From NCBI GenBank assembly GCA_037951105.1, contig JBAMJV010003777.1:70001-134000 (forward strand): DNA of 64,000 nt, in the 5' to 3' direction. A program made the position numbers and the translations under genes. How positions within the stretch are numbered: the stretch's first letter is position 1; the number at the start of each line of letters is the position of its first letter. The notes under the pieces were generated by a model. That model was not told where the DNA came from, ran no database searches, and saw only the letters and a list, made by a program, of their open reading frames with translations. This stretch comes from Echinarachnius parma (Eukaryota > Echinodermata > Echinoidea > Clypeasteroida > Echinarachniidae). Below, piece by piece: positions 1,784 to 51,668 of the stretch.

Positions 1784-2180
1784 TTAACGGAATGTTCTTC
1801 AAAATGTTGTGATGAGTTGTAGAGGACTCGTAGATAAGTCGTAGAGGAGTTGTAACTAGTTGTGATTTAGTTTTTTTTTATCGTGCTCATAAACTATAAG
1901 ATCAGTTCAAATTAGATGAGATACAAATATTAACGGATGGTTCTTCAAAAGGTGATGAGTTGTAGAGGACTCGTAGAGAAGTCGTGGAGGAGTTGTAACT
2001 ACTTGTGATTTCGTTGTTGTTATTCTTATTGTGCTAGTAAACTAAGATCAGTTCAAATTAGATGAGATGCGAATGTTAACGGAAGCGTCTTCAGAAAGTT
2101 GTGCTGAGTTGTAGAAGAGTTGTAACTAGTTGCGATTTAGTTGTTGTGATTCTTATCATGCTCATAAAGCATGAATTCCT
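1784..2180. repeat. Three-unit tandem repeat bearing terminal exon copies
   Basis: Units of about 145 bp start at 1784, 1930 and 2075, each beginning TTAACGGA. The third unit contains exon 9 of copy C. The first two contain decayed versions that lack the EFM start. The same array is at 44532-44935. Confidence 0.8.
2137..2178 (-). CDS. Copy C terminal exon 9
   Basis: Encodes [17 protein letters not shown] after a CATACAG acceptor, identical to gene B exon 9. It lies in the last unit of a three-unit tandem repeat. Confidence 0.8.
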   Translation of the reverse strand, partial: EFMLYEHDKNHNN

Positions 2181-2563
2181 GTATGGAAGATAGAATGCAA
2201 GTTACAATTAAATAGGAAACAAATTAGAAGAAAAAAAAGATTCACAGTTCACAGTCTAGTTGTGGTTGAGTGCTGGTGTCAAATTACAAATGAATAGAGT
2301 TTGACATAGTAACGTACGTAGATCTAAAAGGGTGATTATACAACAAGATGACAGTGACTACACTGTGAATTTGTGAAATGTAACGAATAGTTGTGGTTCG
2401 GTGCATGGTGTATATTAATTAGACATTTTATGTTACTGTAGGTCAAATAACAAACGAAGAAAGTTAAGCATTCAAAATCGAAATACATGCTCTAAAATAG
2501 ATAGATTAAACGAGAACTTACCTGTTTGAAGTTTAATCCTTATTTTATAAGGAATGTAGTGGG

Positions 2564-50300: not shown

Positions 50301-51668
50301 CCTGCAGTTGGATAAGGACCTGGGGGTGTTTCACAAAGATCCTATAAGTTGAACTTGACTCTAAGTTGGACCTAGGGTTAGGGTTATGGAAAAGCCATTT
50401 GTAGCCTTGGAATACAATATATTCAAAAGCAAAAAACAATAATTTAAAACTTTTCATGAATACTGCATCGAGAACATAAAATATCCTTGATAATAGAAAT
50501 ATTATTGTTTTGAATCAACATTATACGCCTTTGAAAAGGTATTTTGTCCTAATTTTTTCAAAGAAACTAGTGGCTTTCCATACTTGTTAAGTCCAACTTA
50601 GGATCTTTGTGAATCACCCCCGGTCTAGTTGGGCCAGGTACTCGAGTCCCTTCGGGCAATCTGGGATGTACCTACTGAATGTACTTAACTAGTTCCTTAT
50701 TAAAACAATTAAAAAAGTCTTATTTTAAATTGCTGATGTTATAATATTTCACCTTCAAAGATCTCGACCTGCTGGTGGATAAGGACCTGGTCCAGTTGGG
50801 TCAGGTACTCGAGTCCCTTGGGGCAACCTGGTACACTGTTCTCTGGCATGGGCATCCACTCACCCGGCAAGCCTGGCTGTTTGTCAACTGTTAGCTGTAA
50901 ATAACATTGACAAGTTGGTCAAGACAAGAGATCAATTTAGCTTGTCAAATTCAACCAAAATTACTTGGAACTTTCTCACTTCTATCATCCATGTATATAC
51001 CTTGTTATTTGGGATATGGTAACATACAAATTAAATGGGTAATGATGGTTATAATTTGTCATGACATATCACCCTAATAATGGAGATATCTATGATTGCC
51101 AGAAAAGTGTTCGGGAACGCTTTCCGATCATAAAGGCGAAATCAATGGGCAGTATAAAATCTGACAGCCGTGTTTTCACGAGTAAAACGCATTACATTTC
51201 TATAAACTTCCACACACTATTCAGAAGAATTTTCTATTCAGATGATATTGGCATGACTGAAATCTCAAATATCCCTTTTGGAAAAATCTTTAATATAAGT
51301 GAATGGATCACTTAAAATACAGTATGGAGAGCAACGGGAGAAGAGCTGAAATTGTCTGTTATAAGGGACACATTTAAACAAAAATCAGAGTGAATTTAAA
51401 TAATTCACACGAATGGACATAAATTGTTTAACTAACTATATCAACTGTATATAGAAATTTGAGAACATTATCATAATTTATATCATCAAGGACGAAATGG
51501 ACGAGTTAGAAGCAGTCTTTTGTGAACAACCGTGAGAGAAAAAGAGGGGGAAACGTATTTGGTTTAGAGGGCGCTTTAGGCAAGTTGAACAAAATAATGG
51601 GAGAACTATATAAAGGTATTACCAAAATTATAGAAAATGGAGAAGAAGAAAAAACTTACCTCTGCCAT
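44884..51668 (-). CDS. PLSCR: Phospholipid scramblase, gene B (nine exons, 253 aa)
   Basis: This is the tandem paralogue of gene A, with the same nine-exon structure, exon lengths and intron phases. The exons are 51668-51660, 50894-50753, 49462-49385, 48817-48741, 47259-47129, 46500-46380, 46019-45917, 45443-45385 and 44925-44884, 762 nt in total. Signatures are [32 protein letters not shown], the Cys cluster [20 protein letters not shown] in the calcium loop, and a C-terminal helix ending EFMLYE. Differences from A include [10 protein letters not shown] in place of [10 protein letters not shown], which loses a Cys. Its introns are shorter than A's, so the gene spans 6.9 kb rather than 14.3 kb. 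A foldback element lies in intron 4, and a relic exon 2 split by a small transposon lies in intron 2. A near-identical copy of its 3' half forms copy C. Confidence 0.93.
45385..45443 (-). CDS. PLSCR: Gene B exon 8
   Basis: This 59-nt exon encodes [20 protein letters not shown] with donor GTAAGTAG. An AAT-type microsatellite begins about 100 nt upstream of the acceptor. Confidence 0.92.
45543..45626. repeat. AAT microsatellite
   Basis: About 28 AAT repeats in intron 7 of gene B, longer than the version in copy C. Ile- and Tyr-rich open frames across it are artefacts. Confidence 0.95.
45751..45798 (-). pseudogene. Relic of scramblase exon 7 (gene B)
   Basis: Counterpart of the relic in copy C, ending in NFSIT-like sequence with a donor GTAAG. 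It lies between exons 7 and 8 of B. Confidence 0.65.
45917..46019 (-). CDS. PLSCR: Gene B exon 7 (calcium-loop exon)
   Basis: This 103-nt exon encodes [19 protein letters not shown], then [15 protein letters not shown], with donor GTAAGT. A truncated relic of the same exon with a good donor lies downstream at 45751-45798. Confidence 0.93.
46063..46315. repeat. Fragment of the AGGGATCTA repeat family (gene B intron 6)
   Basis: Duplicate of 8263-8515 carried with the block, so the insertion predates the duplication. Confidence 0.55.
46380..46500 (-). CDS. PLSCR: Gene B exon 6
   Basis: This 121-nt exon encodes [20 protein letters not shown], then [20 protein letters not shown]. The acceptor is ACTTACAG and the donor GTAATT. 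Two relic copies lie just upstream, at about 46560-46645 and 46725-46812. Confidence 0.93.
46560..46812 (-). pseudogene. Two relics of scramblase exon 6 (gene B)
   Basis: One relic lies at about 46560-46645 and one at 46725-46812. The second retains [12 protein letters not shown] and [12 protein letters not shown] but has an in-frame stop between them, so it cannot encode a normal exon. They correspond one-to-one with the relics in copy C. Confidence 0.78.
47129..47259 (-). CDS. PLSCR: Gene B exon 5 (Cys-rich)
   Basis: This 131-nt exon contains the cluster [16 protein letters not shown] and ends [14 protein letters not shown]. The acceptor is TTGTTCAG and the donor GTAAG. Phase 2 is conserved with A. 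Confidence 0.93.
47372..48291. mobile_element. 920-bp foldback element built on AAWTTCGTC words
   Basis: Inverted repeats of about 270 bp (47372-47640 and 48022-48291) flank a 381-bp centre rich in TGTATG. TA borders both ends (47370-47371 and 48292-48293). Each arm contains about ten copies or near copies of CAATTTCGTC/CAAATTCGTC at irregular spacing. AAT/ATA microsatellites abut both sides. It is in intron 4 of gene B, with no coding capacity. Confidence 0.9.
48741..48817 (-). CDS. PLSCR: Gene B exon 4
   Basis: This 77-nt exon encodes [16 protein letters not shown] then [10 protein letters not shown]. The acceptor is TGCACAG and the donor CAG/GTGGG. It differs from A at S79P, G89L and T93I. 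Confidence 0.92.
49385..49462 (-). CDS. PLSCR: Gene B exon 3
   Basis: This 78-nt exon is identical in protein sequence to exon 3 of gene A. The acceptor is ATCCTAG and the donor GAAG/GTTAGTG, the same slightly weak donor as in A. Confidence 0.93.
50283..50670 (-). pseudogene. Relic of scramblase exon 2, split by a small transposon
   Basis: 50622-50670 and 50283-50323 together match the 3' part of exon 2, including the donor-side CTTTGAAG/GTAAA. The 5' part is missing. The interruption (50324-50620) is a MITE. At several sites the relic resembles gene A's exon 2 more than the intact exon of B beside it. Confidence 0.75.
50324..50620. mobile_element. MITE, GGGTGTTTCACAAAGATCC family, inside relic exon 2
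   Basis: About 297 bp, with ends GGGTGTTTCACAAAGATCCT and AGGATCTTTGTGAATCACCC. The exon sequence ACCTGGTCTAG resumes on the other side. It is a relative of 53394-53701. Confidence 0.8.
50753..50894 (-). CDS. PLSCR: Gene B exon 2
   Basis: This 142-nt exon encodes [20 protein letters not shown] through HQQVEIFE. The acceptor is TTTACAG and the donor GAAG/GTGAAA. A damaged second copy of the exon lies about 85-470 nt downstream. Confidence 0.92.

Follow-up and report, generated by a model that had tools for sequence, protein, structure and literature searches.

The window, a 64,000-nt stretch of the Echinarachnius parma genome (assembly GCA_037951105.1, contig JBAMJV010003777.1, positions 70,001 to 134,000, forward strand), contains three scramblase loci, A, B, and C, of which A and B match the Pfam Scramblase family (PF03803) with 244.3 and 238.3 bits, respectively, at a cut-off of 25.4. 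Open gene models could be joined for A and B and for two further copies, E and H, the model of B comprising 253 aa (Pfam Scramblase E-value 8.3e-71). In gene E, the bases following exon 2 are TT instead of GT. Gene C is 94.3% identical to B over 2,523 nt and 89.6% identical over 1,611 nt, introns included, and the two genes are the products of a recent segmental duplication. Transposons are abundant around the cluster, Rfam and tRNA scans over the window returned no matches, and the assembly seemingly contains both haplotypes, as judged from pairs of contigs that matched with equal E-values.

Several exons of these genes are accompanied by degenerate copies, hereafter called relics, which we compared across 13 scramblase copies. 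An earlier note on this DNA had listed one relic of exon 2 in B, two of exon 6 in B and C and three in A, one of exon 7 in B and C, and two of exon 9 in B and C. Smith-Waterman searches of the three loci with the exons of A and B, calibrated by 25 dinucleotide shuffles per exon, gave exactly these numbers (Table 1). When relics were scored against their own exon and 40 shuffles, the sets of exons 2, 6, 7, and 9 all exceeded the best shuffle, confirming for every named set that the relics are real and more exon-like than shuffled sequence. The second relics of exon 9 stand out least, scoring 97 in B and 89 in C, as compared to a best of 97 among 25 shuffles and of 85 (B) and 81 (C) among 40; profiles including the flanks matched them with E-values of 2.7e-10 and 3.3e-10.

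Table 1. Intact exons, partial repeats, and neighboring features of the scramblase genes, in window coordinates.
Feature	Position	Strand	Evidence or remark
Gene B exon 2, intact	50753..50894	-	ACAG before exon, GTGAAA after; in open 253-aa model
Exon 2 partial repeat, first piece, from exon position 61/62	50602..50666	-	vs A exon 2: score 226, best of 25 shuffles 85
Inserted element splitting exon 2 relic, 23-nt terminal inverted repeats	50322..50621	.	arms 96% complementary
Exon 2 partial repeat, second piece, including GT donor and intron	50286..50323	-	35/38 vs A exon 2; B homology to exon-relative 179
B exon 6 acceptor-side repeat r1 and its intron part, class epsilon	46718..46869	-	81/90 identity; profile E 2.7e-32; Smith-Waterman span 46812-46718
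B exon 6 acceptor-side repeat r2, class delta	46526..46644	-	score 173, best of 25 shuffles 80
Gene B exon 6, intact; array's last unit comprises acceptor and first ~90 nt	46380..46500	-	
Gene B exon 7, intact	45917..46019	-	gene model
B exon 7 donor-side repeat: exon positions 63-102, GTAAGT, and intron	45734..45791	-	offset 166; exon-matching part 45791-45753
Gene B exon 9, last coding exon, in upstream copy of intron 8 and exon 9	44884..44925	-	
145-bp tandem array with two exon 9 and 3′ UTR partial repeats, B	44531..44862	-	TRF 2.3 units; exon-relative 6..123 and 2..105
X: downstream intron 8 copy in B, without recognizable exon 9	43495..44032	-	70.0% to A intron 8 over 547 nt; tree 100/100
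A oldest exon 6 repeat, class iota	24775..24840	-	vs B exon 6: score 127, best of 25 shuffles 80; profile E 0.0024
A exon 6 repeat, theta/eta recombinant unit	24371..24483	-	Smith-Waterman span 24482-24371
A exon 6 repeat, class gamma	24216..24297	-	score 190, best of 25 shuffles 94; Smith-Waterman span 24295-24216
Gene A exon 6, intact; class alpha acceptor	24004..24124	-	
Weak old exon 7 copy, possibly whole, upstream of A exon 7; also in D, E	23804..23979	-	A 98 vs best of 40 shuffles 94
Gene A exon 9, flanked by X-type intron 8 and region Y	20849..20893	-	
C exon 6 repeat r1, cut off where C duplication ends	8928..8995	-	58/63 vs B exon 6
C exon 6 repeat r2	8780..8862	-	Smith-Waterman
C exon 7 donor-side repeat	7938..7995	-	offset 167; exon-matching part 7995-7956
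C exon 9 partial repeats, 2047-2010 and 1903-1867	1867..2047	-	Smith-Waterman and 40-shuffle test

Given the transposon-rich neighborhood and the seeming presence of both haplotypes in the assembly, the relics might be suspected to be a dispersed repeat or an assembly artefact. However, a 157-bp relic unit compared with the 1.2-Gb genome gave at least 15 matches, and all 15 of those listed lie at exon 6 of scramblase genes, whereby we reject a dispersed repeat. Moreover, the exon parts of units within one exon 6 array are only 47 to 92% alike, a degree of divergence not expected from misassembly. We regard this explanation as scarcely credible.

Nearly all relics are partial, consisting of a single exon edge with the adjoining intron or 3′ UTR, and are mostly spaced 127 to 214 bp apart. 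Exon 6 illustrates the acceptor side. Profile searches of genes A to E and H found 20 relics (B, 2; C, 2, one of them cut; A, 3; D, 4; E, 4; H, 5), none of which runs across the donor: 16 end at model positions 157 to 161, approximately exon position 90 of 121, and the other four earlier. As calculated from offsets, 17 of the 20 distances between neighbors are 141 to 187, the remaining three (393 to 396) preceding the oldest unit in A, D, and E. In this array, the complete exon is the 3′-most unit. Relics B_r2, C_r2, and H_r1 align weakly beyond the usual break, to exon positions 110 to 120, and the profile match of the oldest unit in A, D, and E is confined to an interior stretch of the exon; these units may be decayed fuller copies.

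The arrays of exons 2 and 7, and of exons 4 and 6 of gene G1, extend on the donor side, and here the complete exon is the 5′-most unit. The exon 2 relic lacks exon positions 1 to 60, its second piece showing 35/37 identities with B; unit distances, again from offsets, are 159 and 167. The element that splits it has a related inverted copy at 53429-53707 (79.9%). Exon 7 relics start at position 63 in B and 41/53 in E and continue through the donor, at unit distances of 166 to 167 in B and C, 605 in E, and 143 to 196 in the gene on C3782/C2184/C1263. For G1, the distances at exon 6 are 179 and 214, and the match of the exon 4 relic reaches the end of the 69-nt query. Exon 9 relics (in B, matches 44794-44757 and 44651-44614) begin at exon position 2/6 and span the coding end and 3′ UTR without any splice site, at distances of 127 to 148, with the complete exon again the 5′-most unit. 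Two distant matches to exon 2 of E (71/126 and 79/136 identities, 1.5 and 3.8 kb off; score 103 versus a best shuffle of 94) belong to no array and were excluded. In sum, the repeat unit crosses the exon-intron boundary at exons 2, 6, and 7 of B, and both kinds of boundary are duplicated, the acceptor side at exon 6 (A to E and H) and the donor side at exons 2 and 7 and G1 exon 6.

Relics that retain an exon start lie upstream of the intact exon, whereas those that retain an exon end lie downstream. This holds in 7/7 sets, namely exon 2 (B/H), G1 exon 4, G1 exon 6, exon 6 (A to E and H), exon 7 (B/C/E), exon 7 (C3782/C2184/C1263), and exon 9 (B/C/F/H); the two exon 7 sets may go back to one old event, in which case the count is 6/6. 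Such agreement of side and content is the arrangement produced by tandem repeats that cross a single splice junction. The intact exon is then the edge unit of its array, so that the "one survivor" per set highlighted in the earlier note requires no selection, and a one-edged copy would have lacked its other splice site from the start. We therefore consider it highly probable that the relic sets are "mirage"-type tandem repeats of one exon edge and its neighbor, with the used exon intact at the array edge and general local duplication as the source.

The earlier note had instead proposed that whole exons were duplicated in tandem and that one per set survived while the rest decayed; under such a reading, the copies might once have been mutually exclusive exons. 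That the copies adjoin their exon is in keeping with this proposal, yet the fragments described above are not whole exons. Even young relics are sharply truncated, as the exon 2 relic with its near-identical second piece demonstrates, the shared end point of most exon 6 relics and the match between side and retained edge point the same way, and no listed relic of exons 2, 6, 7, or 9 has both edges, for which reason mutually exclusive exons are rejected. As a general account of the sets, we deem whole-exon duplication unlikely.

Whole-exon duplication does also occur at this locus, which speaks against extending the edge-repeat reading to every copy. Intron 8 together with exon 9, which was absent from the relic list of the earlier note, is the one clear case; this duplication is probably older than the split of A and B, and the two clades use different copies. 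An apparent exon 9 relic at the junction of X and Y in B was rejected, since the alignment looks like intron X joined to region Y (profile E-values for exon 9 of 0.009 in B and 0.02 in C). Upstream of exon 7, genes A, D, and E may likewise carry an ancient full-length copy of this exon, with scores of 133 versus a best of 92 among 40 shuffles in E and 118 versus 89 in D; its profile E-values are 0.002 in gene E and 0.03 in D, with no profile match in A.

Might the relics still serve as alternative splice sites or as pseudo-exons with a regulatory role? Some do keep good sites, such as the GTAAGT of the B exon 7 relic and the CAG acceptors of several exon 6 units. Against this stand the stops found in 7/7 tested in-frame read-through paths from a relic acceptor to exon 6, and the fact that most relics have no partner site. 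Rates of change speak less uniformly: between B and C, relics differ at 9/175 sites and exons 6 and 7 at 1/224 (Fisher P 0.006), whereas A and E differ at 1/122 exon and 0/202 relic sites, and E and D, in reverse of B/C, at 9/122 exon and 6/225 relic sites, so that faster change of relics is seen in only the first of these three pairs. A present-day use seems very improbable to us, and we presume the relics to be silent in splicing.

Duplication was recurrent within the locus, as the earlier note had held, and some duplications probably predate the A/B split, as it had suspected: in trees, exon 6 units from different genes cluster together at 100/97 to 100/100, as do intron 8 copies at 100/100. 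The order that it had found conserved between B and C does not constitute independent evidence, because the two genes are a recent segmental duplication. Nor is a unit-by-unit order directly common to A and B; two of the three relics of A plus its exon 6, compared over 75 nt upstream, are at most 65% identical to any B unit.

The arrays have exchanged and lost units. Relic A_r3 is 99% identical to E_r3 upstream and 98% identical to E_r2 downstream, and A has lost a unit that is still present in its twin E. Gene H is a mosaic in which A-type units are joined to B-type units, so that the acceptor class that works in exon 6 of A is a dead unit in H; a one-step history with H as the ancestral array was rejected on account of this mosaic structure. 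Judged by these sequence comparisons, exon 6 unit number turns over by recombination, both within genes and between paralogues.

Local direct repeats are not peculiar to exon edges. They were present in 256/2000 non-exonic segments, 250/2000 intronic segments, and 17/75 exons. With roughly one non-exonic segment in eight thus belonging to a local repeat, the relics resemble that portion of a general process which happens to overlap exons. A blastn histogram of repeat offsets was empty below 100, with short offsets probably lost, and was replaced by an ungapped scan, which itself missed the short-period arrays detected by TRF (9 of 18 rows at 41 to 78 bp), probably via its complexity filter. 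A broader survey of exons of other genes yielded no loci for study. Under the mirage-type reading, a unit of mostly ~130 to 215 bp would reach from the exon into the neighboring intron or 3′ UTR, or the reverse, leaving relics that would be incomplete from birth rather than whole exons beaten in a contest. Copies would be tolerated because splicing goes on using the two sites of the complete exon, while the arrays gain, lose, and exchange units within genes and between paralogues. The source would be a tendency of the genome to local tandem duplication ~140 to 200 bp apart, affecting exons no less than introns.

A limited literature search found no description of the phenomenon in scramblase genes, in line with the earlier note; the phenomenon itself is known from lancelets. 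Lancelet "mirages" occur in Adh3, troponin C, the globins BflGb6 and BflGb9, and PGBD5 (PMC3087553, PMC3902484). In the globins, units of 150 to 160 and 157 bp vary in number while the exon is intact (PMC3087553, PMC3902484), and both sides of the junction are duplicated with splicing undisturbed (PMC3087553); Adh3 units measure 10 to 72 bp, and those of BflGb6 are 81 to 100% alike (PMC3087553, PMC3902484). The scramblase arrays share with these the unit across an exon-intron boundary, the use of either boundary, similar lengths, and turnover of unit number. They differ in occurring in an echinoderm, as opposed to the reported cephalochordate range, in a scramblase cluster, in affecting several exons of one gene, in the greater divergence of their units (exon parts 47 to 92% alike), and in that one array contains the junction of a mosaic gene, H. 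The assignment to echinoderms is borne out by the mitochondrial genetic code and gene order; a screen for the GFP family as a lancelet marker gave no matches, but neither did its controls. Tandem exon duplication and mutually exclusive exons also place extra copies beside an exon but concern whole exons, some of them expressed (PMC9013439, PMC6071210), as opposed to the nearly always one-edged fragments seen here. Intron gain likewise reshapes exon-intron structure by tandem duplication, but copies a coding segment with a proto-splice site so that a new intron appears (PMC2891723, PMC4974935); among exons 2 to 9 of the A, B, E, and H models, compared with each other, there are no added introns.

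These arrays show that junction-spanning minisatellites, known from lancelets, also exist in an echinoderm, where their unit lengths are similar and both sides of the junction are affected, and they are old enough to be compared across paralogues. They also caution that "decayed exons" next to an intact one need not be lost alternative exons, as the geometry of partial tandem repeats suffices. Quite tentatively, junction-spanning repeats might be no lancelet peculiarity but the exon-overlapping part of a nucleosome-length tandem duplication in deuterostome genomes, whose spare acceptors and exon starts could let recombination swap splice sites or build chimeric paralogues. Gene H, a mosaic joined within an array, offers a concrete case in which such repeats accompany a change of the splice acceptor used.

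Three scramblase genes, all on the minus strand, lie in the window (bases 70001-134000 of contig JBAMJV010003777.1, here C3776, in an assembly of 1.2 Gb). Genes A and B have GT/AG introns and encode predicted proteins of 254 and 253 aa, uninterrupted from ATG to stop, which match the Pfam Scramblase domain at E 1.1e-72 and 8.3e-71, respectively. Identity between B and C is 94.3% across 2523 nt and 89.6% across 1611 nt, introns included, which points to a recent duplication; relics common to both, that is, partial exon copies beside an intact exon, therefore count once. Five more copies lie on C3776 beyond the window (G0, G1, D, and E to the left, F near the right end), and others on further contigs: H on C2195, one on C1462, and three that resemble one another on C3782, C2184, and C1263. 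Exon 2 of E (58844 on C3776) is followed by TT instead of GT, and the match to exon 3 of D (37338) is limited to its first 44 nt, so these two genes may be pseudogenes. Across the whole assembly, many kinase matches occur twice, on paired contigs and at equal E-values, so that its 1.2 Gb probably include both haplotypes.

Scramblase genes and neighbouring elements, in window coordinates
Feature	Position	Strand	Content
Gene B	51668-44884	minus	scramblase
Gene A	34025-20849	minus	scramblase, exons 2-9
Gene C	8701-2137	minus	scramblase, truncated copy, exons 6-9
Retroelement, intron 8 of gene C	2968-7289	minus	tyrosine recombinase domain in one frame
LINE reading frame, open, 1041 codons	27901-31023	plus	endonuclease and reverse transcriptase domains

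The retroelement, at which the B-C alignment is interrupted, has weak PCIF1 and Dam-type matches in a second frame, and we take it to be DIRS-like. The LINE frame sits in intron 3 of A, on the opposite strand. Where gene C is broken off, two tandem copies of ~600 nt (9057-10316) share 98% identity and may be an assembly artefact. As to the mitochondrial genome, COX1 had a single match in the assembly, on a contig ordered large rRNA, COX1, tRNA-Arg, ND4L, COX2, where ND4L and COX2 are what we take the translated sequences to be. The COX1 frame has an AAA codon at position 103, within the motif MNNMSFW, where Asn is conserved; in lysine motifs such as STNHKD the codon is AAG. AAA as Asn is stated to be echinoderm-specific, and ND4L adjoins ND4 in cephalochordates and hemichordates, not in echinoderms (PMC2697986). 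Codon use and gene order therefore identify an echinoderm, whose order is most likely that of sea urchins or sea cucumbers.

The relic sets that the earlier note had named, at exons 2, 6, 7, and 9, are real. One comparison set the exons of A and B against the loci, with 25 dinucleotide shuffles per exon as control, and another set 81 exons of 13 gene copies against their own introns, with 40 shuffles each; in the latter, all of these sets exceeded the best of 40 shuffles. Weakest were the second exon 9 relics, with scores of 97 in B and 89 in C against 85 and 81 for the best of 40 shuffles and 97 for the best of 25; flanked profiles recovered them at E 2.7e-10 in B and 3.3e-10 in C. The relics might instead have been copies of a dispersed repeat, but a 157-bp exon 6 relic unit had at least 15 matches in the whole genome, and those listed were all scramblase exon-6 sites, on C3776 and C2195. 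The own-intron scan yielded 43 match rows. Two of them, 1.5 and 3.8 kb away from exon 2 of E (identities 71/126 and 79/136), fit no array and were left out; three form a weak set of exon 7 matches, which lie on the upstream side in A, D, and E, and the others fall into seven sets.

That each set holds only one intact exon had been read as one copy kept after each duplication. A tandem unit straddling an acceptor, however, would leave all copies but the 3′-most without exon end and donor, and one straddling a donor would leave all but the 5′-most without exon start. Where the unit straddles one junction, relics bearing the exon start would be found on the upstream side of the intact exon and those bearing the exon end on its downstream side, and a single intact exon would be required by the geometry itself, without decay or selection. 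The predicted side was seen in 7/7 sets, and also in the weak exon 7 set; were the sets independent and their sides random, this would have a chance of 1/128, or of 1/64 should the two exon 7 sets represent one old event.

The best illustration is the young exon 2 relic, which begins at exon position 61/62, passes the donor, and enters the intron, at an offset of 167 in B and 159 in H. Its second piece retains 35/38 identities with A and 35/37 with B, yet no sequence matching exon positions 1-60 was found. An element whose 23-nt inverted termini are 96% complementary later split this relic. Exon 7 relics start at position 63 in both B (offset 166) and C (167), and at 41 and 53 in E (605 and 747). 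In all three copies of the gene on C3782, C2184, and C1263, the four best exon 7 matches begin at position 61, at offsets of ~151, 347, 490, and 636; among these copies the own-intron shuffle scan flagged only that on C1263, along with extra short matches at 82, 276, and 415. Exon 9 relics begin at position 2/6 and extend past the stop into the 3′ UTR, inside a 145-bp tandem array.

In the exon 6 relics of A-E and H, at most ~55 nt of intron precede the acceptor, which is followed by the first ~90 nt of exon sequence; the next unit comes directly after. Of 20 found by profile search, none crosses the donor; 16 stop at model positions 157-161 and four earlier, and in three, the oldest units of A, D, and E, the match is confined to the stretch just before the usual end point. 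G1 has the opposite arrangement, with two downstream exon 6 units running from position 51 through the donor, and its exon 4 relic, from position 21 to the query end, likewise lies downstream.

Among random 100-nt segments of C3776, 256/2000 non-exonic and 250/2000 intronic ones contained 25 nt or more of a local direct repeat, as did 17/75 exons (C2184 left out), many of these being paralogues of one event. When offsets 25-1000 were scanned without gaps, the smallest one was 140-199 bp at 16 of 37 places, 240-339 bp at 11, and below 120 at none. TRF rows, some of which describe one gene on several contigs, gave arrays of 41-78 bp (9/18), 139-160 bp (8/18), and 256 bp (1/18). The 140-200 bp range is near the nucleosome repeat, a link that is only suggestive. 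Tandem arrays with units of 143 and 160 bp, the size of the exon repeat units, also occur outside the three genes (window 12927-13504 and 41388-42034), and a 256-bp satellite (15.3 copies at 98%, C3776:138348-142284) upstream of exon 7 of F occupies the place where exons 1-6 are expected.

Judging from sequence, the relics are probably not functional exons. In-frame reading from seven relic acceptors to exon 6 was interrupted by stops in every case. Between B and C, three relic pieces differ at 9/175 aligned sites and exons 6 and 7 at 1/224 (Fisher P 0.006; exon 9 left out). No faster relic change was seen between A and E (exon 1/122, relic 0/202) or E and D (9/122, 6/225). The exon part of D exon 6 is 93% identical to H and 89% to A and E, and looks to have been replaced by another type.

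The idea of whole-exon duplication, less apt for these relics, fits intron 8 plus exon 9 better. Downstream of exon 9, B, H, and F carry a region, X, that shares 70-72% identity with intron 8 of A, whereas the exon 8-to-exon 9 stretch of A is 61-62% identical to the same stretch in H and F. In a tree, A/D/E introns 8 and X form one clade and the upstream copies the other, both at 100/100. This clustering argues that intron 8 and exon 9 were duplicated as a whole, before the clade split if rates were roughly even, the upstream copy being used by B, C, F, and H and the other by A, D, and E. No recognisable remnant of the unused exon 9 was found in either clade, nor by alignment at the end of X.

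Repeats spanning an exon-intron boundary are known from lancelets as mirages. Units in lancelet Adh3 are shorter than in the globins (PMC3087553), and mirages are also reported in lancelet PGBD5, with troponin C cited (PMC3902484). Among the papers listed in the literature searches, with subscription journals largely outside them, there was no echinoderm case of a mirage or boundary-spanning minisatellite and no relevant description of exon duplication in scramblase genes. We place the E. parma relics with the mirages, in a phylum for which we found no report.

The arrays also exchange units. Classes of exon-6 units (r1, r2, and so on within a gene) were drawn from the 75-nt upstream flank and a tree of 22 units (A_r4, E_r4, D_r4, and C_r1 left out). 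A_r3 is 99% identical to E_r3 upstream and 98% to E_r2 downstream, so that A has lost one unit through recombination within exon-derived sequence. In the tree, the working exon-6 acceptor of A, D, and E clusters (100/97) with a relic of H, H_r4; the exon that H itself uses lies four units further downstream and clusters with B and C (85/73). H is a mosaic by these comparisons. Its first part, up to the exon 2 relic, is B-like (identity to B 81.2% over 1291 nt, to A and E 68-86% in separate pieces); between exon 4 and the units of the gamma and alpha classes it resembles the A clade (mostly 81-94%, a few pieces 74-79%), the B alignment there being limited to exons 4 and 5 and single units; its later units and exon 6 are again B-like (86.1% over 545 nt, against 69-71% to A, E, and D). 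From exon 8 on, H is 94.5% identical to F over 2636 nt, and is presumably F's other haplotype. Downstream of exon 9, E (80-86%) and B (82.6%) are about equally close, so this region gives no support for B. One mosaic junction lies inside the exon-6 array, and the simplest account of H is that an A-type gene and a B-type gene exchanged sequence within that array.
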